The position numbers were made by a program, and so were the translations under genes. Positions 6,712 to 47,320 of a stretch of 47,768 nucleotides of DNA are shown piece after piece. The stretch's first letter is position 1; each line of letters begins with the position of its first letter. The notes under the pieces were generated by a model that saw nothing but the letters and a program-made list of their open reading frames with translations, was not told where the DNA came from and ran no database searches. The stretch lies in IMG/VR virus record IMGVR_UViG_3300032240_000797, positions 1-47,768 of that record; one strand, 5' to 3'. Source of the DNA: a virus.

Positions 6712-6935
6712 GGCTTTTGTATCTTGACGCCAAGGGTGTTGATGCGCTGGTTGAAAGATACGAAAAAGATACAAAAGCCTTAAAAGAAGAACTATTAAGA
6801 ATTTCTTGGTTTATGAGAGGTGGTGTTAGTTACCACGATGCTCAAATGTTAACTTTTGATGAAAGACAATTAGTGGCAAAACTAATTGAAGGTAACTTAG
6901 AAACTACTAAAGAAAGCGGATTGCCTTTCTTTTAA
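6708..6935 (+). CDS. Small hub-cluster protein (gene 51 position)
   Basis: Encodes 75 aa and starts inside the gp26-like stop (ATGA). It has a short helical N-terminal half and a conserved-looking second half: SWFMRGGVSY, then LTFDERQLVAKLI and ending NLETTKESGLPFF. I know this pattern from small proteins next to gp26 in marine T4-like phages, sometimes labelled gp51 (hub assembly catalyst). It is much shorter than T4 gp51 (249 aa), so I leave the symbol empty. Position suggests a chaperone or small subunit of hub assembly. Its stop overlaps the stop of the convergent 593-aa gene. Confidence 0.7.
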   Translation: MRLLYLDAKGVDALVERYEKDTKALKEELLRISWFMRGGVSYHDAQMLTFDERQLVAKLIEGNLETTKESGLPFF

Positions 6936-29900: not shown

Positions 29901-32900
29901 TTATAGGAACAAGACATAAAAACGTCATACAAGGGCATGACGGTAGTATAATGCTGGCTTACAACGATTATAGAGATAGTATAATTGTAGAGCTAGAGAG
30001 AAGAATTTACAATAACATTAAAGTTCAATACAGAGAAGACCTGTTCAGCATAAATGATGTTATTCCTGGCGCATTTAGAAAAACAGAATATTCCAATGAC
30101 GAAGTAACTCAAATATTACAAGCTGATTTTATGAATTGGGCAGGAATTTTTGGCATTGATTACCAAAATAACGATTCATTTGATGAAGCAGATCCCTTTA
30201 CATGGAATTATACAGGTACATACAATACTTTAACAGACACTAATATATCTGGGTATTGGAGAAATATTTACAAATATTTTTATGATACAGATTACCCTCA
30301 CACAAGACCTTGGGAAATGCTTGGCATTGCTGTTAAGCCAAGATGGTGGGATAGCGAATACGGTCCAGCACCGTATACCTCTGGTAACGAATTGCTATGG
30401 ACAGATATTGAACAAGGTAGAATAAAACAAGGAACTAATGCTGGAATTAATAGCAGATATGCTAGACCCGGCTTAAGTCAAATATTACCAGTCGATGAAA
30501 CTGGAAAATTAATATCTCCTGATGTATTAATTGCTAAAAATTCAACTCCATTTAACAGAAGACAAAATTGGAAATTTGGTGATATGGGCCCGGTAGAAAC
30601 TTCTTGGAGAAGAAGCAGTCAGTGGCCGTTCGCTGTTCAACGATTACTTGCGTTAACCAAACCCTCAACCTATGCGGCATTGATGTTTGACACATCGCGT
30701 ATGAACAAAAACATTGCTGGACAATGGACATACGGTGATAATAATTCTTTCTTAGATCTTAAAAATTTAATTATTCACGATGACAATAATGCGTTAACAG
30801 CTGGGTATGGAGTGTACGTAGTTGAAGCAGGTAGAATGAAAGATTCTGATTATATCAATAAATTAAAAAATGATATAAACTACATGAATATGAATCTATT
30901 CCATAAAGTAGGAGGATTCATTAGTAAAAATAAAATCAGAGTTATTGTTGATGCCATTGCGCCAACTTCTTCAGATTCTGGTTCTTTGTTACCTCAAGAA
31001 AATTATACATTACATTTAAATGTAAGTGCGCCTGTTGAAGCAGTTGGTATTAGCGGAATTGTAATTCAAAAAGCCAATGGAAAATATGTTATTAAAGGAT
31101 ACGATAAGTATCGTCCTTACTTTAACACTTTTAAACCTATTAGAAATAGTACTACCCCATCAATAACAGTTGGCGGAATTTCTGAATCGTTTGTTGATTG
31201 GGTATACCAATCATCTTCGTCTAATAATGGATTATCTGCAGCAGATGTTACAACTGCTAATTCTGCTACAACAGGGCATTTTTATCAGCAAGGACAAATT
31301 GTACGTTATAACAGTAGATATTATAGAGTAAAAACTAGTCATACTGGCGAATCTGTTTTTGATTCTACACTATATACTCCGTTACCATCCTTACCACTAA
31401 AGGGTGGTCGCTCAGTTCAAGTGGCAAAAACTTTTGAAAGTTCAATTACAAAAGTTCCTTACGGTACTTCTTTCTCAACAATACAAGAAGTTTATGATCT
31501 TATAGTTGGGTATGGAAAATATTTAACTTCTGTAGGATTCATATTTGACGAGTTCAATGCTGATTTAAATGATTTATTAGATTGGAATTTTTCAGCTAAA
31601 GAATTTTTATATTGGACTACACAAAATTGGGCCGACAATAGTATTATTACACTAAGTCCGTTTTCTGGACAAATTAAATTCCAACGTGCTGGCACAGTAG
31701 TTGATAATATTTTTGAAAAATCCTACGACTATAGTATATTAAGGGCCGATGGATCTTTAATGCCAGGTAAAAATTTAAGTGTTAACAGACAAGACGGTTT
31801 ATGTACCATATCTACCATTAATACAACTGATGGAATTTATTTTGCGTACATTCGACCTGTACAAAAAGAACACGGCATGGTATTTGATAATACCACAATT
31901 TTCAACGATGTAATATTTGACGTTGAAACAGGTTATCGTCAGCGTCGAATGCAATTCATTGGTTTTAGAACTGCCAACTGGGATGGAGATTATTTTAGCC
32001 CAGGATTTGTGTACGATACTGCAAAAGTTGAAAATTGGAAAAAATACACAGATTATCAATATGCCGATGTTGTAAAATTTAATGGTAGTTATTATTCTGC
32101 CAAATCTAAAATCTTTGGATCAGCTAGCTTTAATGTCAACGATGGCTGGGTATTGTTAAATGAAAAACCTACTGCTGATTTGTTACCTAACTTTGATTAT
32201 AAAGTTTCTCAATTTGAAGATTTTTACAGTTTAGATATTGATAACTTTGATACAGCACAGCAAAAAATGGCTCAGCATATTATTGGATATACACCTAGAG
32301 TATATCTAAATAATATTTTTACAGATCCTATTGCTCAGTATAAATTCTATCAAGGATTTATCAAAGAAAAAGGTACACGAAATGCTGTTGAAAAAATTTC
32401 CAAAGCAACAATTCATAATCAGCAAGGTGAACTTGGCTTTAATGAAGAATGGGCATTTAGAACAGGATTCTACGGGTCATATCAAACATATCAAGAAATA
32501 GAATTTCCATTAGTTGAAGGAACATTTATTGAAAATCCCCAAATTATAAATTTTGTGGATACACAGCCTTTATTAAAATCAAATGACCTAATTTATTATT
32601 CTACACTGTCTCATATGGTTATTGTGCCTGATAATTATAATCCAGACACTGTATTTTCTGTTACCACATCTACTTTTTTAGATAATGGATTTAAATTGCC
32701 AGTTGCTGGATATGTTAGATATGATGACGTAGATTCAACTGCTTATAGCGAAAACAGTTTATTAGATATTGCTAATAATCAAGATCTAAAAGAAGGAACA
32801 ACAATTTGGCTTGGGTTTAAAAACAACGGAGACTGGGATGTTCTACGTTATGAGAGATCTGAGATAGGAGTAATAGGTGTTTATGTTAGTTCACCTGGCA

Positions 32901-35900
32901 GTGAAATTACATTCACTACAAATTATTTCCATTATTTAAATGTTGGCGATGTTGTATCAATTACTAAATTTAATACACAGGTAAACGGTGTCTATAAGAT
33001 TACTTCAATTCCTCAGTTAAATCAATTTACTGTTGCTTCTACATTAGCATCAATTGAAAACGCAGAGCTTCCTAGCCCAGGATTGTTGTTTAAATTTAAT
33101 AGTAAGCGATATGAAAAATTTGATAGCATTCCTCCAGATTCTACTTTACTTGAATTGCCATACGGAACTAAATTCTGGATAGATAATAATCAAGAAGGAA
33201 AATGGGAAGTTTATCAAAAGACTCAAAACTATAATAATATAGCTACCTTTGGTGCGGCTACTCCTGCCAACCAACAATTAGGATATAGCATTAGTAAAAA
33301 AATTAATGACAATACTGTTGTTGTAGGAGCTCCTGGTTATGTTTCCTCAAACTTAAGAGATAAAGGTCGTATATTTGTATACAATAAAACAACAGATGGT
33401 ACAAATTTTAGATTTAGTTATGTAATTAATACTGATGAAAAAACTTATTATGTAAATTCGTCTATACCTACAAGTCCAACGGAGTTTGGATATGCTGTAA
33501 ATTATGATACACAAACATATCATGGATCTGGATTTGGACTATTACTAGCAGGAGCACCATCTGCCTCTGGGGTTGTTTCTAAGAGATGGCCACAAAGTAG
33601 TGTTAGAACTTCTCCTGGTGCTATTAATACAGTAACAGGATATACTACCTCTACATATTCTCAAGAAGGTTTGTTAAAAATTAGTAGTATTGATACTACA
33701 TTTAAAAATGAACAGACAGAGATTGTGTTGCTTGACCCAATGCCAAGTAACTTTGGAAAATTTGGTTCTTCGATATCTATTAATAATTTAGAGAATACAA
33801 GTTCTAGAATATTGTATGTTGGAGCTCCTGGTACAGCTACCACAGGCACAGGCGGAAACGTTTATGTTTTCAAAATTGAAACTAATGCTACTTCGACTGT
33901 ATATGCCTCTGGATGTAAGATAGGAAAAACTTACGAAATAACAGAAATTGGCAGTACTGCTACTACCAATTGGAATTATGTTGCTGGAACTTCTAATGTA
34001 TCTTATATGGTAGGAGACAGATTTGTATGTGTTGCTACAACATCCAGCGGCGATAAACAAGGTAAGGCATGGCCCTGTGTTGATATTTCTTATCAGGGCA
34101 CTTTAAACACTCCTTTTTCTGATGTCAATGTGAACTTAATACAATCTACAGGAACATTGTTTGGGTCTAGTATTAGTAGTATTAAAAATGGAATGATTGC
34201 TGTTGGCGCCCCCGGTTACGATTCACAATCTGGATTAGTAACAATCTATAACACATCTACATTTGAAACCAAGTTAGATAGAAGAAGAGCCTATGATTTT
34301 GCCTTTGAAAGTTTAAAAATTGCGGTTGGTCTATTACCCAACGATATTAATTACGATATTACAGGAAACGGTAGGGTTGATACCGGCGACGGTTTTAAAT
34401 TTTTACAGATAGCACAAAATGGTAATACTCCTACTGGTGTTAGCACAAGTACTTTAATATACAAAAGTTTGCTACATCCAGTAAAGCCTTATGCTCAGGC
34501 AATTTACGCTCCTAGTGAATTTAAGGGAGTATCAAACTTTGGCAACTCTGTTGTTTTATCAAGTGATGGTTCACAACTATTTGTATCTGCGCCTCTTCAT
34601 GTAAATCAAGATTTATCACATGGTGCTGTGGTAATATACAATAAAGATTCCACAACAGGATTGTTTAATACAAGTACCTATACAATATTAAGTAATCCGT
34701 TACCTAAATCTACATTAAATTTTGGACAATCTTTAGATTTTAATCTAGAAACAAATACATTGGTTATCACGGCAGTTGGTACAAGTCGGCCAAATATAAC
34801 ATTTGATACTAGTGATACTACATTTGATTCTGGGGCAACAAAATTCTATGGAGAAATACCAAACATTGGTACAGCTTATGTATATAACAAAAAGGTAGAT
34901 AGATTTGTATTAGCTGACGAATTATTAGTTTCTAATTATGTAGAAGGATCTAATTTTGGTTATAGTACAGTTATTACTCAAAATGAAATCTTTGTAGGTG
35001 CTCCGGCAGTTAATACAACAGCTACTAGCGGATTCTATCAATTTAGTAAAATAAATTCTTCTATTGACAGTTGGCAATTACTAAGACAACAAGAAGATAA
35101 AGTAGAAATTGACCAATTCCAACGTGTGTCTTTAATTAACACATTTGATGAACAAGTAATTGACTATCTTGATATTGTTGACCCTTTAACAGGAAAAATT
35201 CCAGGACTAGCAGATCAAGAAATCAAGTTCAAATCTGCTTATGATCCTGCTGTATATTCTATTGGAGTTGCTGGTACAGTTAATGATACAACATCTAACT
35301 GGTTAGATGAACATGTTGGCGAACTATGGTGGGATTTAAGTACTGTTAAGTATGTATGGTATGAGCAAGGCGAATTATCATATAGAAAAAATAACTGGGG
35401 TAAATTATTCCCAGGAGCAACAATTGATGTATACGAATGGGTAGGTTCGGAATATCTACCAAGCGAGTGGAGCTCACAAGCAGATACATCTGGTGGATTA
35501 ACACAAGGAATAAGTGGCCAACCTAAGTTCTCAGATAACAGTGTAATATCTGTGAAACAAGTTTACAATTCAGTAACAAACTCTTTTAGTAATTATTATT
35601 ACTACTGGGTAAAAAATAAAGTAACTCTACCAACGTCTAAAAATCGTAGAATGAGTGCTTATCAAGTATCTAGCTTGATCGCCGATCCTACTAGTTATGG
35701 ATATAAGTATGCTTCTTTCTTATCAAAGAATTCTGTTGCTCTGTCTAACATAGGAAATACATTAGTTGATACAAGAATAAATCTTAATGTTGCTATAGAC
35801 TCGATTAATAATCAAATACAAAAGCATACAGAATGGTTATTACTATCCGAAGGAGAAGCTACTAATGTTCCAAACATTCTTCTTGAGAAAAAACTATTTG

Positions 35901-38900
35901 ATAGTTTATTAGGACATGATAGTTTAGGAAACCAAGTTCCTGATCCAACGTTGCCTGATAGAACAAAATACGGGCTTGGAATCAGACCTCAACAAACTTT
36001 GTTTAAAGATAGACGACAAGCATTAAGAAGTCTTGTAGAATTTTCAAATGAAATTTTATTAAAAAATCAAATAACTGGAAATTATAGTTTTACACGTTTC
36101 AATGCTCAAGAAGCTCCGCCTGATGTTTACAGCAACGAATGGGATCAAACTGTAGAAGATAACGAAGCATTATTGCTCGTTGATACTGTTAAATTTGCTA
36201 CGGCTGAATTATCATGTACCGTTAAAGACGGAAAAGTACGCAGTGTTTCTATTATAAATCCAGGATATGGTTACAGGAATAGACCAACTATTAAACTAGT
36301 TAACGAAATAGATCCTATATTAGATGCTAAACTTGTTGCTGAAATTGATGCCAATGGCAGTGTGATCTCAGTTACTGTTGAAGATGCTGGATCTGGATAT
36401 TCTTCTGCTCCAACTTTAATTGTTCGTCCTTATACTATTATAGTTTTGTCCGACACATTATATAACGGTAAGTGGACAAAATTTGCGTGGAATATTAATA
36501 CACAAGACTGGGATAGAATTCAAACACAAAAATATAACACTCCGTTATACTGGGATTATGTTGACTGGACCAGTGATAGTTATAATAAATTTATTGACTA
36601 TACATTTACTGTAGGAGAGCTCTACGAGGTTAATACACTTGTTTCTAAATTAAAACCTGGACAATATGTTAAGGTACAAAATTGTGGTGACGGTTTAGCC
36701 ATTGTATTAGAAAAAACAAGTTCTGATGTACTTGGTACATTTGATCCTGATTTTAATATGGTGTTCAAAGAAAACGGAACTATACAAATTAGCAATGGAA
36801 TTTGGGATGTTACTAATAACAATTTAGGATTTGATAAAAATAATAGTTACGATCAAACTTTATATGATCAAACACTTGATATCGAACTAGGATATATTCT
36901 TGATGCGTTAAAGAAAGATATCTTTATTAACGAATTAAAAGTTAATTGGAATTTGTTCTTCTTTAAGGCAGTTAAATATGCTCTTACAGAACAAAAATTA
37001 TTAGATTGGGCATTTAAAACTTCGTTTATTAATGTTACTAACTATGCTGGAAACCTAGATCAACGACCTGTATACAAATTACAAAATAGTGATTACTATG
37101 AAGAATACATGAAAGAGGTTAAACCTTATCATAGTCAGATTAGAAAATTCACTACAAACTACGGAGTACTTGAACCTAGTCAAACATTTGTTTCTGACTT
37201 TGATTTACCATCAATATACAACACAGCCACAGATTCATTTATAACAATTGATGAATCTAGTGATTTAACAAGTGTTTATCCTTGGAAATCTTGGGCCGAT
37301 AATAATAGCTTTGTTGTAGAAAGTATTTCAGTGGCCAACGGAGGAGCAAATTATATATTTCCTCCAATTATTACAATTGATACAGCTCCCGGAGATTCTG
37401 GAACAGGTGCAACTGCCGCTGCCTATATTGGGTCTGGAAAAGTTATTCAAGTTGTTGTAACAAATCCCGGGCAAGGATATAAGACAGCTCCGATAGTTAC
37501 ATTAACTGGTGGCGGCAACGAAGATCTAGTTCCTGCCGCATTGTCTGTAAAATTAGGAAATAACAAAATACGTACTAATTTAATAGGAATGAAATTTGAT
37601 AGAGTAGGATCTGTTAATGAGATTGGATCAAATACAGTTACTGATTCATTTAACTGTAATGGTGAGACCAACGAATTTGTGTTGAACTGGTTGGCAGAAC
37701 CAGATAAGACTAAAATTACAGTTACACTAGACGGCGCCTATGTTTTAAGTTCTGATTATACTGTAAAATATTACACAGAGTCAGTTGGCGGATATCAAAA
37801 GAAATTTTCTAAAATTGTATTTTTAAATTATGTGCCTGTTGTATCTACAGTACTAACAGTTTCATATGCTAAAAATATTGAAATATTTACTGCCGCTGAA
37901 AGAATCTTAAGTTATTATACAGCTACATCTGGAATGCCAGGGTTAGATATGGCACAGTTAATGGATGGAGTTGAATATCCTAAAACACAGATAAAAACAA
38001 TTGGATTTGACTATACTAGTAAGTGGGACAACCAGAATGAAGTAAATGGAATACAGGTCTATGCTAGTCCATACGGACAATCAAGCTGGGCCGACGATGT
38101 TAGCGCCTATACACAGGCTACTGTTGCTTCGTCTATATCTCTATTTGCTAATACAAATACTATTTTCGTAAGTACCACAACAGGAATTTCTGTAGGACAA
38201 TATGTTAACATTGTTAGTGGTATAACAAATAAACTTAGTAGTTCCACAGTAAAAGTTATTGCTGTTAATACAAACTCTGTTAAAATTGATGCCAGTACCA
38301 CTGGTGTAATTCTCAAAGGCGACCCAATAGAATTTTGGACCTATGATTCTAATTTTAGTATTCTTGACAGTGCTATTGATGGAGGAACATGGAGTTTAAC
38401 TACAAGTAATTACCTAATTGGTGCGCTAGGAGTCAAACCTGAAGATATTATTATTGATGGCGATGGATTCTATACCCCAAATACAAGTCATGCTCCTGAA
38501 GAGTTTGTTCCTGGTGAAAGTGCTGATGCTGTTGGAATTAGTGTTTACACTAAATCAGGATCAGGATCCCCACTGGTGTATACAGGTTATGTCAATGTAG
38601 ATGCTTCTACAAATGTCAGCACCACAGCAATTCTAGGAATTAGACCTATGAATTATGATAGTATTACTGTTGTTTATAATAATAAAATTTTACAGCCAAC
38701 TGCTCAGCAATTTTTTGCTAATCCACTTGACAGTGATTACTATTATTTAAATTTTGATACTAACGAAATTCTTATTGGACCTAGATCTTCCTCTGGAAAA
38801 CTAGGTTATACAATTATATCAGTTGGTGGCGAAAACATTGTTGACCATGATGCTGTAACTGCATATTTTACTAGTACAGGACAGGTAGAAAGTTTATCAT

Positions 38901-41113
38901 ATTATTCAGATATTAAACGTGCGTATGTTACAGTTGATGGGCAAATTATTACTACAACAAGTACGTCTTATACAAACAAATATTTTGAATTAACTTATGC
39001 TAACCCAATGGATAAACGTGCTGTTGCCAGAGTTCATAATTTAGATGCCACCACCAGCGCAACAATACAAGCATGGTTCTTTGATGCCGACACAGATCTT
39101 TATAACGAAATTAGAGAAGAGACCTACGTAATTAACTCTAGCACTCAGTATACTGGCGGAACAGTTAATAGGCTACCCGGTAATATTGAACCATATGCTC
39201 CTCAAGTTATCTTAGAAGTCAATTTTAATAATGACAATGATGGGTATCAAAGATTGCTACCACCGTTTGTTAGTTATTACACAGTTGTTGATTACAGAAT
39301 AAGAACGTTTAGTGTTGATAACAATAGAAATCACTTTAATGATTTTAAAGCTATCAATACAGGCACAGGATTCACTGTAAATAACGTCTTGGTCTATGTC
39401 AACGGAGTAGCATTGGCTCCTGGATTTGACTATACAGTAGCTCCAGATTTGCCATTAATGACAAATCCAAAAGTTACTATAATTGACGGAATACTTGCTA
39501 CAGGTGATGTAGTAGCTATTGTTGCCAAACCCGATTATGGATGGGAATATGATATTGTTAACAAACATATTGTTCTTAACGGTTATGTCACCGACTGTGT
39601 TGTAAAAATTATTACTTACACAGATCACGACAAGATGCTAATGTGGACAGAAAGATTCTCAGGAAACACATACAGAAGATTTAAAATTGGTCGTAAAGTA
39701 TTAAACAACAATTATGTATGGGTACAATTGAATAGAAAACCGTTAGTTAATAAGATAGATTATATTTTATTAGAAGACGGAATAACTGTACAACTAAGTG
39801 ATACTATACAAGTAACGTCTGCTGATGAAGTATTAATTACAACATTTAGTTCTCAAGAAGTAAATTCAGATGTTTTAGGTTATAGAATTTTCAATGATAT
39901 TCTTGGAAGAACATCTTTCAAGAGAATTTCTAAACAAAACTCTACATATCTAACTGAGCCTCTATCATTTACACACACTGAAATTCATGTAGCAGATGCT
40001 AGTGTATTAACACCGCCGTCTGTTCATAGAAAAGTGCCAGGCGTTGTATTAATTGATGGCGAACGAGTTGAATTTTACAAAATTGTAGGAAATACATTAA
40101 CTCAGCTACGTAGAGGTACGCTAGGAACAGGTCCTAATCATGTTGTTGAACCAAACACCAAAGTTATTGATCAAGGTATTAATCAAACAGTTCCTTTCAG
40201 CGAACAGATCTTAGTTCAAAATACACTAACATCTAACGCTACAAGTTATGTAATTAGTACATCGTCATCTTTAGTAATTGGTGATGGCATTAAATTATCA
40301 GTTGGTCCTGTCTCAAATGTAATTGATTCTGCCAAGTCTCTTGATTATTCTATTACTGCTTTAAAAATGGTAGTAGGTATTCTTCCAGTCAATCTTGCCT
40401 ACGACTTAAACGGTGATGGATTAGTTACATTAACAGATGCTATTGCCTATATTAAGATATCAGTAGGAAAACCAATTGGTTTTACTCCAGTAACTACATC
40501 TAACTATAATGAATTATTTGTAGTAACTTATCCTGTTCCAGCAGTTGATCAGGTATCTGTATACTACGGTGGAAGATTGTTGAATAAAAAACCAACGTTC
40601 TATCATGACACATCAATAGGGTATGATAGTCCTGAATTTAATGTAATTGGATCTACATCAACAGTACTTGGTCTACCAGTATCGAGTATTAATTATCTAA
40701 CAGATGGTGATGCATATATTGTAACAGCAACAAATCAAGTATGGGTATATAAAAACTCTGTTGAAATTGATGCTGTTAATGGATTTGTTTACAGAGGATT
40801 AAATTATCTGCCTGCTGAATTTAGTATCAATACATCTACTCAAACAATTGGGTTAAATATTAAAGATGGAGTACAACCAAATATTAGATTATCCGTAGTT
40901 AAAAAACAATTTGCTAGAAGTTTAAGCTGGAATAGCATTGTCGATGATTTGACAACACTGTCATTATTAGATAGCACGTCGACTCAGGCAAGATTCTTGC
41001 AAGCAAGACCAGCAGAATTGCCAGACAAATATTATTACGGAGGAACTACTTCTTTAACAGATAGCGGAATTTCTCTAACTGATAGATATGGAGATCCATT
41101 AACAGGACTATAA
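26981..41113 (+). CDS. Giant baseplate/tail-associated structural protein (4710 aa)
   Basis: One uninterrupted frame of 4710 codons sits in the position of T4 genes 7 and 8, after gp6. The N-terminus (VNLLPEIFKSDKNKKFLSST, then DPQIDLDKFVNYQEYYWLV) and a region near 1000-1130 (LYPKFRPHKYKDFTFIGTRH, RDSIIVELERRIYNN) resemble large structural proteins after gp6 in aquatic T4-like phages. Residues about 2100-2695 carry seven FG-GAP-like blades (FGxS...VGAP...GxVxVY), a probable beta-propeller. Dockerin-like units lie at about 2434-2478 and 4447-4497, the second with a full calcium loop DLNGDGLVTLTDA. Two GxGY repeat pairs occur near 3086-3150 and 3447-3509. No signal peptide or enzyme motif is visible. 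A scaffold for wedges and fibres, perhaps also a receptor binder, is inferred. Confidence 0.8.
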   Translation: MANKKIKSVNLLPEIFKSDKNKKFLSSTLDQLIQPADLERIDGYVGSKITPTYNPESDIYLQETNKLRKDYSLEPAMVVYNTTSEIQKVVALDDLTNEISVYGGINNNLDRLYGPQYYSYDPQIDLDKFVNYQEYYWLVTGPDTVEITGTPRNSTSTYVVRNSDVSFIFTPDGINEDPLITLYRGNTYNFQLNSDKNLYIKIAPSPADQDLYSVNTTNNGTSTGILTIVVDVNTPSTLYYASDDRNFQGKILVKDSTENSIINVEKEVIGKKNYKSGNGIDLSNGMKIRFGGTVTPTFYQDKEFFIEGVGDYIRLIDYNSLLNQSVLGTQYDDNFDATPFDDYPFDTFKNLPLTPEYVTINRASRDLNPWTRYNRWFHSSVIKKSAELNGIDATYPADYRAKRPIIEFKANLQLYNFGKVAIKGVDLIDTRSTEVFKIVEGSAGYWVDGVLLEQGHRVIFNNDKDSKVRGKIYEVNYIIIKNSARMQLKEVVDPTTGDSISVALGDTNGGASYYFDGDKWIRSQQHNRLNQFPRFDLFDNNGYSYSNKSVHLSNFAGNSVFGYSVGTGDNDAVLGFPLKYKNSSGVGSYLFRNYFMTGKFSITENEYSTTSTTVSTALTYLRINDEQGDKFVNVWRQAEHYQIPILQFQTLTSNTSTIEINCIDNPQITDLTLDVLVNNNKIQTSEYSIETVNGRLSVNFVTEQSSNSTVLLKVYTDKPTNNNGFYETPLGLTNNPLNGPIAEMTLSEISDHTQTMVYRDSNWSGVFPGVSNIRDLPEFTAYGSRLISNATPMPFAQMFIGNPEHNVVSAIQRSASWYSQFKLEFLRRISNYSDQKNPIDAVDEILKAINFRKNILSPYYLSDMVAYGQDKTVRTWTVTSVRNTVYPISSDFNLTTLSLRSVLVYLNGVQLCVDLDYEFLPNEGSVNFIRTLQEGDVIEIHDYSNTEGCYIPPTPTKLGLYPKFRPHKYKDFTFIGTRHKNVIQGHDGSIMLAYNDYRDSIIVELERRIYNNIKVQYREDLFSINDVIPGAFRKTEYSNDEVTQILQADFMNWAGIFGIDYQNNDSFDEADPFTWNYTGTYNTLTDTNISGYWRNIYKYFYDTDYPHTRPWEMLGIAVKPRWWDSEYGPAPYTSGNELLWTDIEQGRIKQGTNAGINSRYARPGLSQILPVDETGKLISPDVLIAKNSTPFNRRQNWKFGDMGPVETSWRRSSQWPFAVQRLLALTKPSTYAALMFDTSRMNKNIAGQWTYGDNNSFLDLKNLIIHDDNNALTAGYGVYVVEAGRMKDSDYINKLKNDINYMNMNLFHKVGGFISKNKIRVIVDAIAPTSSDSGSLLPQENYTLHLNVSAPVEAVGISGIVIQKANGKYVIKGYDKYRPYFNTFKPIRNSTTPSITVGGISESFVDWVYQSSSSNNGLSAADVTTANSATTGHFYQQGQIVRYNSRYYRVKTSHTGESVFDSTLYTPLPSLPLKGGRSVQVAKTFESSITKVPYGTSFSTIQEVYDLIVGYGKYLTSVGFIFDEFNADLNDLLDWNFSAKEFLYWTTQNWADNSIITLSPFSGQIKFQRAGTVVDNIFEKSYDYSILRADGSLMPGKNLSVNRQDGLCTISTINTTDGIYFAYIRPVQKEHGMVFDNTTIFNDVIFDVETGYRQRRMQFIGFRTANWDGDYFSPGFVYDTAKVENWKKYTDYQYADVVKFNGSYYSAKSKIFGSASFNVNDGWVLLNEKPTADLLPNFDYKVSQFEDFYSLDIDNFDTAQQKMAQHIIGYTPRVYLNNIFTDPIAQYKFYQGFIKEKGTRNAVEKISKATIHNQQGELGFNEEWAFRTGFYGSYQTYQEIEFPLVEGTFIENPQIINFVDTQPLLKSNDLIYYSTLSHMVIVPDNYNPDTVFSVTTSTFLDNGFKLPVAGYVRYDDVDSTAYSENSLLDIANNQDLKEGTTIWLGFKNNGDWDVLRYERSEIGVIGVYVSSPGSEITFTTNYFHYLNVGDVVSITKFNTQVNGVYKITSIPQLNQFTVASTLASIENAELPSPGLLFKFNSKRYEKFDSIPPDSTLLELPYGTKFWIDNNQEGKWEVYQKTQNYNNIATFGAATPANQQLGYSISKKINDNTVVVGAPGYVSSNLRDKGRIFVYNKTTDGTNFRFSYVINTDEKTYYVNSSIPTSPTEFGYAVNYDTQTYHGSGFGLLLAGAPSASGVVSKRWPQSSVRTSPGAINTVTGYTTSTYSQEGLLKISSIDTTFKNEQTEIVLLDPMPSNFGKFGSSISINNLENTSSRILYVGAPGTATTGTGGNVYVFKIETNATSTVYASGCKIGKTYEITEIGSTATTNWNYVAGTSNVSYMVGDRFVCVATTSSGDKQGKAWPCVDISYQGTLNTPFSDVNVNLIQSTGTLFGSSISSIKNGMIAVGAPGYDSQSGLVTIYNTSTFETKLDRRRAYDFAFESLKIAVGLLPNDINYDITGNGRVDTGDGFKFLQIAQNGNTPTGVSTSTLIYKSLLHPVKPYAQAIYAPSEFKGVSNFGNSVVLSSDGSQLFVSAPLHVNQDLSHGAVVIYNKDSTTGLFNTSTYTILSNPLPKSTLNFGQSLDFNLETNTLVITAVGTSRPNITFDTSDTTFDSGATKFYGEIPNIGTAYVYNKKVDRFVLADELLVSNYVEGSNFGYSTVITQNEIFVGAPAVNTTATSGFYQFSKINSSIDSWQLLRQQEDKVEIDQFQRVSLINTFDEQVIDYLDIVDPLTGKIPGLADQEIKFKSAYDPAVYSIGVAGTVNDTTSNWLDEHVGELWWDLSTVKYVWYEQGELSYRKNNWGKLFPGATIDVYEWVGSEYLPSEWSSQADTSGGLTQGISGQPKFSDNSVISVKQVYNSVTNSFSNYYYYWVKNKVTLPTSKNRRMSAYQVSSLIADPTSYGYKYASFLSKNSVALSNIGNTLVDTRINLNVAIDSINNQIQKHTEWLLLSEGEATNVPNILLEKKLFDSLLGHDSLGNQVPDPTLPDRTKYGLGIRPQQTLFKDRRQALRSLVEFSNEILLKNQITGNYSFTRFNAQEAPPDVYSNEWDQTVEDNEALLLVDTVKFATAELSCTVKDGKVRSVSIINPGYGYRNRPTIKLVNEIDPILDAKLVAEIDANGSVISVTVEDAGSGYSSAPTLIVRPYTIIVLSDTLYNGKWTKFAWNINTQDWDRIQTQKYNTPLYWDYVDWTSDSYNKFIDYTFTVGELYEVNTLVSKLKPGQYVKVQNCGDGLAIVLEKTSSDVLGTFDPDFNMVFKENGTIQISNGIWDVTNNNLGFDKNNSYDQTLYDQTLDIELGYILDALKKDIFINELKVNWNLFFFKAVKYALTEQKLLDWAFKTSFINVTNYAGNLDQRPVYKLQNSDYYEEYMKEVKPYHSQIRKFTTNYGVLEPSQTFVSDFDLPSIYNTATDSFITIDESSDLTSVYPWKSWADNNSFVVESISVANGGANYIFPPIITIDTAPGDSGTGATAAAYIGSGKVIQVVVTNPGQGYKTAPIVTLTGGGNEDLVPAALSVKLGNNKIRTNLIGMKFDRVGSVNEIGSNTVTDSFNCNGETNEFVLNWLAEPDKTKITVTLDGAYVLSSDYTVKYYTESVGGYQKKFSKIVFLNYVPVVSTVLTVSYAKNIEIFTAAERILSYYTATSGMPGLDMAQLMDGVEYPKTQIKTIGFDYTSKWDNQNEVNGIQVYASPYGQSSWADDVSAYTQATVASSISLFANTNTIFVSTTTGISVGQYVNIVSGITNKLSSSTVKVIAVNTNSVKIDASTTGVILKGDPIEFWTYDSNFSILDSAIDGGTWSLTTSNYLIGALGVKPEDIIIDGDGFYTPNTSHAPEEFVPGESADAVGISVYTKSGSGSPLVYTGYVNVDASTNVSTTAILGIRPMNYDSITVVYNNKILQPTAQQFFANPLDSDYYYLNFDTNEILIGPRSSSGKLGYTIISVGGENIVDHDAVTAYFTSTGQVESLSYYSDIKRAYVTVDGQIITTTSTSYTNKYFELTYANPMDKRAVARVHNLDATTSATIQAWFFDADTDLYNEIREETYVINSSTQYTGGTVNRLPGNIEPYAPQVILEVNFNNDNDGYQRLLPPFVSYYTVVDYRIRTFSVDNNRNHFNDFKAINTGTGFTVNNVLVYVNGVALAPGFDYTVAPDLPLMTNPKVTIIDGILATGDVVAIVAKPDYGWEYDIVNKHIVLNGYVTDCVVKIITYTDHDKMLMWTERFSGNTYRRFKIGRKVLNNNYVWVQLNRKPLVNKIDYILLEDGITVQLSDTIQVTSADEVLITTFSSQEVNSDVLGYRIFNDILGRTSFKRISKQNSTYLTEPLSFTHTEIHVADASVLTPPSVHRKVPGVVLIDGERVEFYKIVGNTLTQLRRGTLGTGPNHVVEPNTKVIDQGINQTVPFSEQILVQNTLTSNATSYVISTSSSLVIGDGIKLSVGPVSNVIDSAKSLDYSITALKMVVGILPVNLAYDLNGDGLVTLTDAIAYIKISVGKPIGFTPVTTSNYNELFVVTYPVPAVDQVSVYYGGRLLNKKPTFYHDTSIGYDSPEFNVIGSTSTVLGLPVSSINYLTDGDAYIVTATNQVWVYKNSVEIDAVNGFVYRGLNYLPAEFSINTSTQTIGLNIKDGVQPNIRLSVVKKQFARSLSWNSIVDDLTTLSLLDSTSTQARFLQARPAELPDKYYYGGTTSLTDSGISLTDRYGDPLTGL
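33278..35065 (+). repeat. Seven FG-GAP-like repeats encoded in the giant gene
   Basis: The encoded units begin LGYSISK, FGYAVNY, FGSSISINN, FGSSISS, FGNSVVL, FGQSLDF and FGYSTVI. Most carry VGAP, AGAP or SAP about 12-18 residues later and close with a G-x-V/F-x-V/I-Y-N strand. Seven is the blade number of integrin-type beta-propellers. A phage-type module with YEITEIGSTATTNW follows blade 3, and a dockerin-like unit lies between blades 4 and 5. Confidence 0.65.
34281..34413 (+). repeat. Dockerin-like unit 1 in the giant gene
   Basis: Encodes FAFESLKIAVGLLPNDINYD followed by the loop DITGNGRVDTGDG. It matches unit 2 at 40321-40473 in length and pattern: a helix with LKxxVGxLP, then Y-D, then a calcium-type loop, then a second helix. 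Loop positions 1 and 12 are Asp, 5 is Asn. Confidence 0.55.
40321..40473 (+). repeat. Dockerin-like unit 2 in the giant gene
   Basis: Encodes YSITALKMVVGILPVNLAYD then DLNGDGLVTLTDA, a complete EF-hand-like calcium loop with Asp/Asn at positions 1, 3, 5 and 12, followed by the helix AIAYIKIS. Confidence 0.6.
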
Positions 41114-41114
41114 A

Positions 41115-42263
41115 ATGCCACAAGTAACGCAATTACCAATTTTAAGCACAGCAACCAACCAAACATACATGTTGGTTGTTGATAATCAAGCCACTAGGAG
41201 GCTAAGTTTTGCTCAGGTAGCAAGCCAAATTGGCAGTATACCAATCGGGCCTAGTGGACTTAGAGGTCCAAGCGGTCCAAGCGGATCTAGAGGACTTAGT
41301 GGGCCTGCCAGTATTGGTCCAAGCGGACAAAGTATTTCTGGTCCAAGCGGACCAAGCGGACCTGCTAGTACAATACGTGGTCCAAGTGGACCAAGTGGAC
41401 AAAGCATTGTAGGCCCAAGTGGCCCAGGCGGAGCCGGTTCGATTGGCCCACAAGGTAACCAGGGACCGCAAGGTCCTCAAGGTTCGGCCGGAGCAGCCGG
41501 ATTAAGTGGACCAAGTGGACAAAGCATTGTAGGCCCTAGTGGTGCTGATAGTACGGTATCTGGTCCAAGCGGGCCTCAAGGTGATCTAGGGCCTCAAGGA
41601 GCAAACGGAACAGATGGAGTTACAGGGCCAAGCGGACCTAGTGGAGTTAGCGGCCCAAGAGGTGCTACAGTAGGTAATCAAGGACCTAGTGGAGTTAGCG
41701 GACCTACTGGAGTACAAGGAAGTCAAGGACCGATCGGTGCTCAAGGAACTGCTGGACCAAGCGGCCCATTAGGACCACAAGGCATCGGCCCTAGCGGACC
41801 AAGCGGTCCAGCAAGCACAGTAGCAGGACCGAGCGGACCAAGCGGAGTTAATGGAAACGTAGGTGTTGACGGAGCAAGCGGCCCTAGCGGCCCGAGGGGG
41901 CCTAGCGGAAGTCAAGGGCCACAAGGGCCACAAGGTAGTCAAGGCACACAAGGTTCCGTAGTATCTCTCGCTACAGGAACGTATACAGTTGGTATATTGT
42001 ATGCTAATACACTAACTATCACCGGTATAGGTGCCGCAAATATAAATTCTGCCAATGATTTAAATCTTAATGCCGTTGGTCAAGTTAAAGTAAATTCACC
42101 ATTTGTATTGACAACTGCTACAACAGCACAATTATCTGCTCTAGGAGGAACAACACAACGAGGTGCCATGGTATATGTTATTGATGCCAGTGGCGGAGCC
42201 CAACCTTGTTTCTTTGATGGAACAAATTGGAGACAGGTAGTTGACAGAGCATCAATAGCATAA
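41115..42263 (+). CDS. Collagen-like tail fibre protein
   Basis: Encodes 382 aa in three parts. Residues 1-44 form a short attachment domain (TYMLVVDNQATRRLSFAQVA). Residues about 45-281 are Gly-X-Y triplets, mostly GPS, with a few breaks such as SIG and STIR; these should form a collagen triple helix. Residues about 283-382 form a small C-terminal head (GTYTVGILYANTLTITGIGA, then FFDGTNWRQVVDRASIA) that probably trimerises the fibre and may touch the receptor. Gly-X-Y stalks are used in phage fibres as thin rigid rods. It lies between the giant gene and the protease-like gene with one-base spacing on both sides. Confidence 0.85.
   Translation: MPQVTQLPILSTATNQTYMLVVDNQATRRLSFAQVASQIGSIPIGPSGLRGPSGPSGSRGLSGPASIGPSGQSISGPSGPSGPASTIRGPSGPSGQSIVGPSGPGGAGSIGPQGNQGPQGPQGSAGAAGLSGPSGQSIVGPSGADSTVSGPSGPQGDLGPQGANGTDGVTGPSGPSGVSGPRGATVGNQGPSGVSGPTGVQGSQGPIGAQGTAGPSGPLGPQGIGPSGPSGPASTVAGPSGPSGVNGNVGVDGASGPSGPRGPSGSQGPQGPQGSQGTQGSVVSLATGTYTVGILYANTLTITGIGAANINSANDLNLNAVGQVKVNSPFVLTTATTAQLSALGGTTQRGAMVYVIDASGGAQPCFFDGTNWRQVVDRASIA
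41247..41960 (+). repeat. Collagen-like Gly-X-Y coding repeat
   Basis: About 79 triplet-lengths built largely from the DNA word GGNCCAAGCGG and its variants. A 33-base exact direct repeat occurs at 41384-41416 and 41504-41536, 120 bases apart and therefore in frame, so unequal exchange would shorten or lengthen the stalk by 40 residues. Confidence 0.85.
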
Positions 42264-42264
42264 T

Positions 42265-44877
42265 ATGGAACATTTTAAGTATTACGTAGTTGTTGAAGAT
42301 CCTGTTTTTAAAGAGGCAGTATCTGCTGAACTAAAATCACAAGATGGTACTGATCATATTCCAGATCGATCAGTAGATTGCCATGACGAAATGGAATATA
42401 GTGAATATAATTCTATATTTTTATTAACCACCGAGGAAGCAGAAGTTTTAAAAAATGATCCTAGAGTTAGAGATGTACACAGGATACCTGCCGAACTTGG
42501 AATTTTTCCTAAAAAATGTGGAGTAAGAACAGGAGTATTTGAAAGGGCTAATACAGCACCTACTACCACAGCAAGAAATTGGGGACTTATTCGATCTATA
42601 TCTACTTTTAATTCTTACGGAACTTCTACTACAACTTCGTCGTCGTATACATATAACCTAGACGGAACTGGAGTTGACGTTATTGTTATGGATACAGGAG
42701 TTGAACCATATCATCCTGAGTTTTCTGTTAACGCTGATGGATCCGGCGGAACAAGAGTAGTTAATCATGATTGGACACAGTACGGATATTTGTCAACTCC
42801 GACTGGGGGATTTTTAGGCGACTGTGACGGACACGGAAGTAATGTTGCTAGTATTATAGCAGGAAATACCTGTGGCTGGGCACCTGGCGCAAAAATTTAT
42901 TCATTGAGAGTTGTAGGAAATACTTATACCACTGAACGTGACATCACTGATGGTAGAGTACTAGGGTTAGTTAATGAACATTTAGCATGGGCATCCATTA
43001 TTGCTTTTCATAATGCTAAATCAGTTGATCCTGCTACCGGATACAAAAGACCTACTGTAGTTAATTGTAGTTATGGATATCCTTCTACCTACAATAATCT
43101 AAAATCAATAACATATCGTGGTTCAACAACTTTAACAACTGCAACTATTGGAACTTATGGTACTATAGGTTCTAATGTTGATCCTTATTACGGAGGAAAT
43201 CACGGATATAGATATTCTGCTATCGACGCTGATATATCTTCAGTGTTAGCTGCAGGAGTTATAATTGTTGGCGCCGCTGGAAATGACACTCATAAAATTG
43301 ATGTACTTAACGGACTAGATTATAATAATTATTGGACTGACACAAGCAACTCTTCTTATTATTATCATCGAGGTGCTACACCTGGAGCTACATCTGGAGT
43401 TATTTGTGTTGGATGTATTTCTTATGCTGTACCTGAACATCGAAGAAGTTTTAGTTGTGCCGGACCTAGAATAGATGTATGGGCACCAGGAGACCAAATT
43501 TTAGGTGCATTTACAAATAGTGTATATTCTTATGCTGCCATAGTTGATCCTAGAAGTAGTGTATCAACTTCAAGTGGAGCAAGTTATTACCTACAAAAGA
43601 TATCTGGAACTAGCCAAGCCTCTCCGCAAGTTGCTGGGGTGGTAAGTTGTTTATTACAAGCAAGACCTTGGATGACTCCTGCTCAAGTTAGATCGTGGAC
43701 AACTGCTACTGCCTCTGTTGCTAACTTAGATGAAACATATTATGGAATGACAGGAACATATACCAATTGGGCAGGGTTAATGGGTGCTCCACAAAAATTG
43801 TTATATCAGCCCTTTAATCAAGATATTACTATGTCTGTAAGTCATTTAGGAACCTCCACTGTAGCTTATCCTAGTTTTTCAACATTTTTATCTTCTACTA
43901 TATCAACTTCAGTTACGGCAGCTCAGTTAGGTAATAGAAAAGAAGGACTTAATACTGGATCTACCGGTACTACACTAGGAATTCATAGTACCTGGACATT
44001 TAGCGGTACTAACATAACAATGCTAGCATCTGGTATTCCATACCATAGTTATTTTAATGCCGCTGCCGCCAATATACCTTATGTTCAAAATTATAACAAA
44101 ACTTGGACATATAGAGGCGGAACTAATGTAGCTGGATCTAATACTCCTACTGGTGGAGGATATATTGGATTTTGGTTAAATGGTATTGCTATGTTTAATC
44201 CTAGTGCTCAAGGCGGAGCACCTGGTGGATATACTACATTTGCTAATTGGCACTATAATGCTGCCTACGAAGCAGGCGAAACATACGGTTATTCATTTGG
44301 GGAAGATAGCGGGGGTGGACATGCCGCTCCTAACGGAGTTGGAAATGGAACATATCATTATCATGACGGTAGCATGATTATAACAGGAGCATGGGTAACT
44401 GGTAACGGACACACATCAGGAGTTTATGGTGCAACAGGCATAGCTGAATGTAATGTTATTCCTTACTTAAATGGAGGACTTACACATTTCAACGGACATA
44501 GTAAAATTATGGGTGTTACCGCTGATGGATATCCTATATATGGTCCATATGGTTATAGTACTGCTACTGATCCTAATAGCGGAGTTAGAAGAATGGTACC
44601 GGGTTATGCGTTAAATCCGACCTTTGTTGCTAACAATGCTAGAACAACAAATGGTACAACTCCTGCGGTAAATTCCCAGTACCCGTTAGGTATTTTTGTT
44701 GAAGACTGGAGCTATGTTGGCGGCGGAGATCTAGATACACACAATGGTCGTTATTGTGTAACTCCAGAATATCCAAACGGAACTTATGCTTATTTCTTAG
44801 CGTTTGATGCTGATTTGAAACCTACATATCCTTATGTAGTAGGTAATACTTATTATGGGGTGCCGGCAACCTTATGA
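42265..44877 (+). CDS. Subtilisin-like serine protease fused to a YHYH domain
   Basis: Encodes 870 aa. Residues about 130-510 form an S8 subtilase with all key residues visible: Asp143 in VIVMDTGVEPYHPEF, His190 in DCDGHGSNVASIIAG, oxyanion Asn340 in GAAGNDT and Ser450 in ISGTSQASPQVAGVV. Residues 1-110 look like a propeptide-like or adaptor domain (VLKNDPRVRDVHRIPAELGI); no signal peptide is seen. Residues about 570-860 form a YHYH-type domain with HWSYHYH-like GTYHYHDG (694-702), VTADGYPIYGPYGY and FVEDWSYVGGGDLDTHNGR. The gene sits between two fibre genes with one-base junctions, so a virion-borne protease acting on host surface proteins or on fibre maturation is likely. The catalytic set is intact, but substrate and virion location are inferred. 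Confidence 0.88.
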   Translation: MEHFKYYVVVEDPVFKEAVSAELKSQDGTDHIPDRSVDCHDEMEYSEYNSIFLLTTEEAEVLKNDPRVRDVHRIPAELGIFPKKCGVRTGVFERANTAPTTTARNWGLIRSISTFNSYGTSTTTSSSYTYNLDGTGVDVIVMDTGVEPYHPEFSVNADGSGGTRVVNHDWTQYGYLSTPTGGFLGDCDGHGSNVASIIAGNTCGWAPGAKIYSLRVVGNTYTTERDITDGRVLGLVNEHLAWASIIAFHNAKSVDPATGYKRPTVVNCSYGYPSTYNNLKSITYRGSTTLTTATIGTYGTIGSNVDPYYGGNHGYRYSAIDADISSVLAAGVIIVGAAGNDTHKIDVLNGLDYNNYWTDTSNSSYYYHRGATPGATSGVICVGCISYAVPEHRRSFSCAGPRIDVWAPGDQILGAFTNSVYSYAAIVDPRSSVSTSSGASYYLQKISGTSQASPQVAGVVSCLLQARPWMTPAQVRSWTTATASVANLDETYYGMTGTYTNWAGLMGAPQKLLYQPFNQDITMSVSHLGTSTVAYPSFSTFLSSTISTSVTAAQLGNRKEGLNTGSTGTTLGIHSTWTFSGTNITMLASGIPYHSYFNAAAANIPYVQNYNKTWTYRGGTNVAGSNTPTGGGYIGFWLNGIAMFNPSAQGGAPGGYTTFANWHYNAAYEAGETYGYSFGEDSGGGHAAPNGVGNGTYHYHDGSMIITGAWVTGNGHTSGVYGATGIAECNVIPYLNGGLTHFNGHSKIMGVTADGYPIYGPYGYSTATDPNSGVRRMVPGYALNPTFVANNARTTNGTTPAVNSQYPLGIFVEDWSYVGGGDLDTHNGRYCVTPEYPNGTYAYFLAFDADLKPTYPYVVGNTYYGVPATL

Positions 44878-44901: not shown

Positions 44902-44922
44902 CCTTATTGGAACATGAATAAA

Positions 44923-45537
44923 ATGAATACTAAACCTAACGAACATGGCAAAATCAGCATAGAAGGACATCTAAAGATCTATGATCCTGTTAATAATGAA
45001 GTTTTTATTAACAAAAGAAATGCCATCCACTATGAAAATTTTGCCATTGCCCTAGCACGTAGCGTAAGCAATCAGGGTTACGGATTTATTGCTGACATGG
45101 CATTTGGCAACGGCGGTACTCGTGTTGACCAAACAGGTATTATTACATACTTAACTCCTAACACAGTAGGAACAAGTAGTGCTCTATATAATCAAACATA
45201 TACAAAAACAGTTGATGCTAAACAAACATATGACTTAGATCCTAGTAGAAATTTCATGGAAGTAAGACATGTAGCAGGAACACCTTACGCTGATGTTTTA
45301 GTAAGTTGTTTGTTAGACTTTGGTGAACCCGGCGGACAGAGTGCGTTTGATAATTCTAGTTACACAGATGGAAAGTTTGTATTTGACGAAATTGGTTTAA
45401 TGTCTTACAGTCCTGACGGTCAAGGAACTGGAGACTTGTTAACTCATGTTATTTTCCATCCAGTTCAAAAATCATTAAACAGACTAATTCAAGTTGATTA
45501 TACAGTTAGAATTCAGAGTCTAACCAACGGAATGTAA
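44923..45537 (+). CDS. Conserved virion structural protein of the fibre/baseplate cluster
   Basis: Encodes 204 aa from the ATG at 44923; the ATG at 44914 would place GGAA only a few bases before it and nearly abut the promoter. The N-terminal HLKIYDPVNNEVFINKRNAI and HYENFAIALARSVSNQ, then ADMAFGNGGTRVDQTGIITY, are typical of a protein found among baseplate and fibre genes of marine T4-like phages and annotated as structural. It probably forms a beta-rich connector for fibres. I do not see clear similarity to T4 gp8, gp9 or gp10. It is joined to the next gene by TAATATG. Confidence 0.7.
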   Translation: MNTKPNEHGKISIEGHLKIYDPVNNEVFINKRNAIHYENFAIALARSVSNQGYGFIADMAFGNGGTRVDQTGIITYLTPNTVGTSSALYNQTYTKTVDAKQTYDLDPSRNFMEVRHVAGTPYADVLVSCLLDFGEPGGQSAFDNSSYTDGKFVFDEIGLMSYSPDGQGTGDLLTHVIFHPVQKSLNRLIQVDYTVRIQSLTNGM

Positions 45538-45538
45538 T

Positions 45539-47320
45539 ATGCCATATACTATAAATTTTTCAGATCCGTCAAAAACAACATCAGTAACAGTACCAGACAT
45601 GCCGCCTGGCATTAACACTGTTGACACTAGTCTTTCATTAGTCGGTAGAGGATATCCAAACTACGGACAAAAAATGGCTGAAAATTTTGTACATTTACTA
45701 GAAAATTTTGCCAGCGCATTACCACCTAGCAATCCAATAGAGGGACAACTATGGTACGATACCAGTGATCCTAATAATAAAGTTCTTAGGATCATGGATG
45801 GTACAGCAAGTGCTACACGTTGGCCGAGCGCCAATGGAATTTATCAACAAGGAACAGATCCTCGTTTTTCAAATAACTTATCTTCGGCAGGATTAAAAGT
45901 TGGAGACTTATGGGTTGATACCGCAAATAATCAAGTTAAAATTTATAACAGTAATGGATGGACTGTAGTTGGTCCTAATTTTTCAGATGGTATATTAAAA
46001 AATGGTCCTATTGTTGTACCGTTAACTGATAACAAGAATCCTCCTAATACATATAACGTTATTCAGTTATGGTCAGAAGGAAATGTTACAGCAATAATAT
46101 CTGGGGTGGCATTTACTCCTAGGGTTGTTATTGAAGGTTTTACAACACTTCTCCCTGGTCTTAATTTAAGAAGTGATGGCAAATTTAATGGAACTGCTAT
46201 ATCAGCAGAAACATTAACTGTTAATGGATCAAAATACGGTAGCGAAAGATTCTTAAGAAAAGATGATTCATCTACTCCTAGTGTTTCTGGCCAAGGACAA
46301 ATTATTACAGGTCGTGTTTTATGGCAGACCCCTGTTAATCAATCTGGTAGTCAAGGGCGTGATGGTATTGTTATTACAAACTCATCTACTCCTACAGGAT
46401 CTGAGTATGTACAGTTTTATAAAAATACCAACGATGCTTGGATTTTAAATAATACAGTTGCTGGAAAAATTTATTTAAAGGTTAGACCTAATAGCAGTCC
46501 AGCTCTTTCAAATATTGTTGTTGTTGGTTCTGATTTAGTTAATATTAATACATCGACTAGAGTAGCAGGTAATGTTAGTGTTTCAGAAACATTAACGGTA
46601 GAATCTACAATAAGTAACTCGTTGATTGTAAATGGAGGTGCGTTAGTAAATGGCACATTAACAGCTAGTCAAAATATTAATGTTGCCGGTAATGTAACAG
46701 TATCTGGATCATTAAGTGTTGGATCAACAATATTACCTAGCACAACAGAAGTTTATGATCTAGGATCATCATCAAAATCTTATAACAGATTGTATGTTAA
46801 ATCTGTTGGAACAACCGCTACAACATATTATGGTAATTTAGTAGGACTTGCAACAGGATTAAGAGACGCTGTAACATTTAGATTACAAGGACAAGTAACT
46901 GCCACTTCTTTTATATACAGTGGAGCAACAGTTACCGCTACATTTAATACATCGTTAACTCCTAGCGCATTTACAGCTCAACCTGTTTTAACATCTGCTC
47001 AATCTACATCTTCGTTAATGATTTTACAGGGTGGTTCAATTGCCACTATTACAAAAGAAAATTTACTTCAGAGTATATTTCCAGTTGGTATGATAACTGC
47101 GTACGGCGGCCCGTGGACATCGTCGGCTCCGAGTGGATGGTTGCTATGCGACGGTGCCTCCTACAATCAATTAGATTATCAACAGTTATTTGGAATAATT
47201 GGCATTACCTATGCAAAACCTGCCGATTTATCAGGAACAACTTTTAGGGTACCTGACATGCGTGGATCCACTACCGCTACAAATGCTACTATTAAAATAA
47301 CATATATTATAAAGACATAA
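45539..47320 (+). CDS. Tail fibre protein with phage tail-collar domain
   Basis: Encodes 593 aa. The N-terminal 140 residues form a fibre module (AENFVHLLENFASALPPSNP, then EGQLWYDTSD and VGDLWVDTANNQVKIYNSNG) that recurs in the next gene. The middle (about 330-420) is beta-repeat-like and Ser/Thr/Val-rich (VAGNVSVSETLTVESTISNS). The C-terminus (about 515-575) is a tail-collar domain as in T4 short tail fibres: FPVGMITAYGG, then PSGWLLCDGASYNQLDYQQL, and TFRVPDMRG. It probably serves host attachment or the short-fibre collar. Junctions are TAATATG before it and TAAAATG after it. Confidence 0.85.
   Translation: MPYTINFSDPSKTTSVTVPDMPPGINTVDTSLSLVGRGYPNYGQKMAENFVHLLENFASALPPSNPIEGQLWYDTSDPNNKVLRIMDGTASATRWPSANGIYQQGTDPRFSNNLSSAGLKVGDLWVDTANNQVKIYNSNGWTVVGPNFSDGILKNGPIVVPLTDNKNPPNTYNVIQLWSEGNVTAIISGVAFTPRVVIEGFTTLLPGLNLRSDGKFNGTAISAETLTVNGSKYGSERFLRKDDSSTPSVSGQGQIITGRVLWQTPVNQSGSQGRDGIVITNSSTPTGSEYVQFYKNTNDAWILNNTVAGKIYLKVRPNSSPALSNIVVVGSDLVNINTSTRVAGNVSVSETLTVESTISNSLIVNGGALVNGTLTASQNINVAGNVTVSGSLSVGSTILPSTTEVYDLGSSSKSYNRLYVKSVGTTATTYYGNLVGLATGLRDAVTFRLQGQVTATSFIYSGATVTATFNTSLTPSAFTAQPVLTSAQSTSSLMILQGGSIATITKENLLQSIFPVGMITAYGGPWTSSAPSGWLLCDGASYNQLDYQQLFGIIGITYAKPADLSGTTFRVPDMRGSTTATNATIKITYIIKT

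Follow-up and report, generated by a model that had tools for sequence, protein, structure and literature searches.

A proteinase K-type subtilase joined to a YHYH domain in the fibre/baseplate gene run of a phage: a candidate virion-associated protease

The virus record IMGVR_UViG_3300032240_000797 (IMG/VR), from a large tailed phage, carries, among its tail-fibre genes, a gene whose product combines a subtilisin-like (S8) protease with a YHYH domain, which raises the question of what a protease of this type does at such a position. Phage-tail enzymes are known mainly as cutters of sugar or peptidoglycan. The window analysed was the whole stretch of 47,768 nucleotides, and the following features are used below.

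41115..42263, + strand: collagen-like tail-fibre protein (Pfam Collagen 5.1e-21; PHROG tail fibre 4.8e-37)
42265..44877, + strand: S8 (proteinase K-type subtilase)–YHYH fusion protein, 870 aa, ATG start (ORF read and Pfam)
42265..42504, + strand: putative I9-like propeptide, residues 1–80 (predicted topology; sub-cut-off Pfam I9 matches in relatives)
42520..43833, + strand: mature subtilase catalytic domain, residues 86–523 (Pfam S8 match at 134–487; fold match)
42691..42693, + strand: codon of catalytic Asp143 (D in 80/80 relatives)
42832..42834, + strand: codon of catalytic His190 (H in 80/80 relatives; begins model helix 190–199)
43282..43284, + strand: codon of Asn340, oxyanion hole (N in 80/80 relatives)
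43612..43614, + strand: codon of Ser450, nucleophile in the GTS motif (S in 80/80 relatives; model helix 449–466 starts there)
43963..44859, + strand: YHYH domain, residues 567–865, Pfam core 625–849 (PF14240; profile match 567–865)
44914..45537, + strand: 207-aa protein, phrog_11259, of unknown function (PHROG 1.2e-67)
45539..47320, + strand: 593-aa fibre protein with a tail-collar domain (Pfam PF07484 8.7e-15)

A preliminary description of the locus had proposed a complete S8 residue set, a C-terminal YHYH-type domain and a separate Pfam search for each half. Both assignments were borne out, each half scoring far above its curated cut-off: residues 134–487 matched PF00082 (E 2.6e-33, 116 bits, cut-off 21.8) and residues 625–849 matched PF14240 (E 1.8e-30, 106.8 bits, cut-off 25). 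The residues D143, H190, N340 and S450 lie in the S8 motifs VIVMDTG, DGHGS, AAGND and GTSQASP, respectively. The one-base junctions that had been described on both sides were found only upstream, where a single base separates the stop codon of the collagen-like gene from the ATG; the downstream gap is 36 bases. Likewise, the collagen-like fibre upstream was confirmed, whilst the ‘virion protein’ downstream belongs to phrog_11259, a family of unknown function, and its virion role is an inference. By eye, the N-terminus of the protease does not resemble a hydrophobic leader.

Structure prediction, which had also been proposed, gave a confident AlphaFold2 model of residues 1–536 (pLDDT 90.8, 60 aligned sequences) with a proteinase K-type fold. 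In a VIA fold comparison the model matched the keratinase 5wsl_A with Z 36.9 (rmsd 2.1 Å over 279 residues) and proteinase K (2prk) with Z 34.3, and the Pfam score, the residue set and the subtilisin-type fold together place the protein in peptidase family S8. In the mixed S8 and YHYH alignment made for full-length folding, the YHYH-only rows were misaligned across the S8 part. The four catalytic residues were kept in all 80 non-redundant relatives, far above chance; these relatives are mostly 33–60 % identical. Between close S8 pairs dN/dS was 0.07–0.25; the catalytic residues of the family are evidently held under strong purifying selection.

Several S8 proteins in other contigs depart from this plan. 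Tandem S8 genes occur in L186 (2118–3635) and L189 (2104–3645), the first copy having Glu where the catalytic Asp is expected, with His, Asn and Ser kept, which suggests a degenerate partner copy. In L042 (6001–10086) the 1361-aa S8 protein has a C-terminal extension matching Pfam AGS_C, a nucleotide-sensor domain (E 8.1e-6; 26.3 bits against a cut-off of 26.7), and S8 proteins of like size are present in L053 and L078. Cupredoxin-like modules were seen inserted in a phage S8 domain (L004 4264–12210, residues ~290–395), at the C-terminus of a phage S8 protein (L195 2570–4615, residues 620 on) and inserted in a phage YHYH protein (L007 9854–11221); they carry the type-1 copper signature GHPF ... 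C-Q-F-H-x-x-M, with Pfam Cupredoxin_1 reaching only E 0.063.

The region ahead of the catalytic domain was a point missed by the preliminary description. Residue 86 of the model corresponds to residue 1 of mature proteinase K-type enzymes, and PDB proteinase chains align to the model only from residue ~82–100 onward. Directly ahead of the mature part lies an N-terminal domain, modelled with high pLDDT, whose predicted b-a-b-b-a-b topology is the layout of the I9 subtilase propeptide and whose conserved residues are P33, R35, L54, E58, D65 and R67. Pfam I9 (PF05922) gave no match in the window protein; in relatives it reached E 0.11–0.38 (11.9–13.7 bits against a cut-off of 21.2) in the correct register, the best score (L186, E 0.11) spanning nearly the whole profile. 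A search of PDB sequences with an N-terminal profile returned matches at chance level only, among them the ProteinT propeptide chain, in the right place, at E 0.98. The fold comparison of the 1–536 model hardly probes the propeptide, the list being filled by the catalytic domain. Because the proteinase match begins at residue 86, residues 1–80 look like an I9-type propeptide, an assignment that is likely rather than proven given the I9 scores under the Pfam cut-off. Such a propeptide would make the protein look like a zymogen needing processing.

At least 418 IMG/VR stretches were found to encode relatives of the S8 protease, compared with 2 among 84,980 genomes of bacteria and archaea. As both scans used short peptide patterns, these numbers are approximate, but the difference between them is wide. 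The family is phage-enriched and close to absent from cellular genomes. Its best PHROG match is phrog_9158, which has no assigned function, and many members are without names. Among phage records, 40 matched the S8 half and 463 the YHYH half, and most YHYH-bearing cyanophages had no detectable S8 gene. S8 peptidases in cyanophages were already noted in 2010, and YHYH domains on tails in 2020–2021 (PMC7029224, PMC7824862). No relevant paper came up in a literature search on subtilisin-like proteases associated with virions. Relative to the literature that was found, four points are new: the domain resembling a propeptide, the wide spread and predominantly viral character of the family, the repeated pairing of S8 with YHYH and a link to virion proteomics.

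The YHYH motif of the window protein is Y697 H698 Y699 H700. Both motif histidines were kept in just 41 of 83 phage YHYH domains, and H698, a third His, in only 54. No variation was seen at H745, D754, D814, D824 and N827 and very little at H741 and D681; for the five and H741 the counts were 81–83 of the 83. The window domain carries all of these residues. The domain has been described as having a His triad and an Asp with predicted Zn binding, and proposed to be a tail-associated Zn-dependent hydrolase (PMC7824862); it has also been counted among carbohydrate-binding and host-recognition domains (PMC7029224). The preliminary view that no activity is firmly established for YHYH remains accurate, the hydrolase role so far being a prediction (PMC7824862). 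A structure model of the YHYH part had a pLDDT of 30 (14 alignment rows), and a YHYH profile had no match among PDB sequences at E 1. From its conserved residues, the module is a probable metal-binding domain. It is related to a protein of known particles: SSM1_102, the T4-GC969 product of cyanophage S-SM1, has a YHYH match of E 1.7e-44, and the purified virions of that phage contained T4-GC969 as one of 41 detected proteins (PMC3037559). In another contig, the YHYH protein of L160 (5059–10464) has a weak alpha/beta-hydrolase-type match ahead of its YHYH domain (palmitoyl thioesterase, E 3e-4, below cut-off).

A search for the same fusion in other phages, as had been suggested, was successful. 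Two further contigs, L009 and L117, encode the same end-to-end architecture: the L009 protein (864 aa) is 61 % identical to the window protein overall (56 % in S8 and 69 % in YHYH), and the L117 protein (851 aa) is 41 % identical end to end. The fusion is therefore not an assembly artefact, since both contigs encode both halves end to end. L009 has two S8 genes, a plain one at 251–2191 (646 aa) and the YHYH-fused one at 5998–8589, the latter flanked directly on both sides by collagen-like genes. In a tree of 30 S8 sequences, L117 fell in a different clade, distant from the window and L009, and a single group of the three was rejected (p-AU 6e-23). In the YHYH tree the window and L009 domains were sisters (support 100/99), whilst the placement of L117 relative to them was not resolved and a single clade was not rejected (p-AU 0.06). 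These trees indicate that S8 and YHYH were joined, or one half was exchanged, at least twice.

Looser forms of the pairing were also found. In six contigs (L132, L137, L151, L160, L186 and L189) one or more S8 genes lie one or two genes ahead of a YHYH gene, and in the cultured cyanophage S-BM3 both domains occur within one 2648-aa protein. From Pfam alone, the ‘peptidase S8’ label of the S-BM3 protein could be taken for a misannotation, but a profile specific to the family detected an S8 domain in it, complete with the four catalytic residues. The fused form is rare, comprising three contigs and the divergent giant version in S-BM3. That the pairing recurs suggests that both domains act at the same place.

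The protease gene of the window sits inside a fibre/baseplate gene run, and this setting recurs in its relatives. The upstream neighbour could be read for 81 S8 genes: the gap to it was exactly 1 base in 24 of them, and most gaps were −4 to +5; the neighbour was collagen-like in 23 of the 81, compared with 72 of 1064 ORFs overall. By PHROG assignment, fibre families accounted for about 22 of 62 upstream neighbours and the baseplate-fibre connector phrog_677 for 17 of 62, whilst downstream neighbours included phrog_677 (11/58) and the baseplate wedge phrog_438 (9/58). Relatives of the phrog_11259 protein, 60–76 % identical, also directly follow S8 genes in other phages, and baseplate genes flank the protease gene of S-CREM1 and of S-H38, two phages of Synechococcus.

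The window baseplate protein is closest (~34 %) to those of jumbo T4-like phages with several Gram-negative hosts, and a 2-kb test stretch of window DNA had no match among phage records. In the jumbo Agrobacterium phage Atu_ph07, which has a baseplate protein related to that of the window, the S8 gene and a tail-fibre gene are two genes apart. By CDS count its product is gp329, with checkpoints at gp215, gp288, gp292, gp293 and gp327 in agreement, and the third virion-protein cluster published for this phage comprises CDS 284–329 (PMC6102473); gp329 is the last gene of that cluster, and may itself have been detected in virions. Elsewhere in the window, a single ORF of 4710 aa (26981–41113) comes right after a 1140-aa baseplate protein, and Atu_ph07 has a 4449-aa ‘structural protein’ at the matching position. 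A Gp5-like tail hub is encoded at 20747–23059; towards its C-terminus it matches profiles of the endolysin/GH19 chitinase type (phrog_181 3.1e-32; PF00182 below cut-off).

Compared with known enzymes, the window protease shares its fold (Z 34–37) and D/H/N/S set with proteinase K, aqualysin I, Meiothermus keratinase and ProteinT, and with proteinase K-type subtilases the start of its mature domain and a propeptide-like N-terminal domain. It differs from those subtilases in being phage-encoded, in its long insertions, in having a C-terminal YHYH domain and no visible export leader, and in its location in a fibre cluster; where the sequences align, identity is only ~30 %. The peptidases of phages S-CREM1, S-H38, P-SSM2 and ACG-2014 (phrog_9158, phrog_3677) share the S8 subfamily of the window protein, N-terminal domain included, and also lie inside fibre/baseplate gene runs; unlike the window protein, the cyanophage subtilisin-like peptidases examined have no YHYH in the same ORF, and the S8 protein of ACG-2014j has a cupredoxin-like tail instead. 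Other tail YHYH proteins (PMC7824862; S-SM1 T4-GC969) share PF14240, the tail/baseplate association and the His/Asp set, but their domains are usually found in giant baseplate-type or small separate proteins rather than after S8. The S-BM3 protein resembles that of the window in having S8 with D/H/N/S and YHYH on one chain, and differs in its very divergent S8, a cupredoxin-like insert, ~900 residues between the domains and an Ig-type domain. In jumbo phages with a baseplate protein related to that of the window, Atu_ph07 gp329 and the S8 peptidase of the Sinorhizobium phage Phosso also place an S8 catalytic domain beside a tail-fibre gene run (hhalign probability 99.7 for Atu_ph07), but are 1251–1287 aa long with a different C-terminal region.

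For the window protein we consider the chances about even that it is a serine protease that matures itself, is carried on the virion as part of the host-adhesion apparatus and digests protein on the host surface at adsorption. It would be made late, together with the fibres; residues 1–80, acting in the manner of I9 as intramolecular chaperone and inhibitor, would assist folding and then be removed in cis near residue 80–100, after which the mature enzyme would be mounted with fibre/baseplate proteins and clip a host-surface protein at adsorption. The YHYH domain, with its conserved His/Asp set, may bind metal and either hold the enzyme at its target or add a second hydrolytic activity. So placed, the protease would do to proteins what enzymes on the tails of other phages do to polysaccharides. 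The particle-borne protease of the preliminary description is partly supported and stands as the best-supported reading, on its catalytic residues, fibre/baseplate setting, viral bias and virion YHYH relative. Since hundreds of other phages have the S8 family, a protein-cutting tool on the particle is probable.

The main rival is fibre maturation, and most of the evidence for surface digestion fits it too. The protease would in that case cut the adjacent collagen-like fibre or other tail proteins at assembly, and might or might not remain in the particle. The tight coupling to the upstream structural gene, the phrog_11259 synteny retained as the S8 proteins diverge and a zymogen architecture that would delay activity all speak for such a role; however, the upstream neighbours vary so widely that no common substrate is apparent, and the many YHYH cyanophages lacking a detectable S8 show that such particles do not generally need one. 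We regard maturation as rather unlikely, and an accessory host-contact tool is favoured over an essential assembly enzyme because S8 presence is patchy (40 compared with 463 records) and the neighbours are variable.

If the protease instead degraded host proteins within infected cells or during lysis, its position in the fibre cluster would reflect no more than late expression. S8 enzymes are able to act in the cytosol, as intracellular subtilisins do, and the sequence has no obvious export leader, but the fused YHYH domain has homologues in a virion protein detected by MS, S8 is repeatedly paired with fibre and baseplate genes, and the S8 gene of Atu_ph07 is found at one end of a virion cluster defined by MS, which makes this explanation improbable. 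Least probable is a non-catalytic S8 fold used as a binding or structural module of an adhesin: the Glu-bearing copies of L186 and L189 demonstrate that degenerate copies exist, but an intact catalytic set in every one of the relatives and the strong purifying selection argue against it.

Returning to digestion of the host surface, the viral family of proteinase K-like zymogens may, as a tentative generalization, consist of modular adhesion-apparatus proteases, autoprocessed on assembly, lying beside the fibres, retargeted by exchangeable modules (YHYH, cupredoxin-like, glycine-rich) and cutting protein receptors or surface layers before injection. The recurrent S8–YHYH pairing offers a concrete partner activity for testing the role of the enigmatic YHYH domain. 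If proteases of this kind are indeed widespread in tail clusters, many aquatic phages would be able to digest cell-surface protein, which would matter for host range, for the masking of receptors and for surface layers made of protein.
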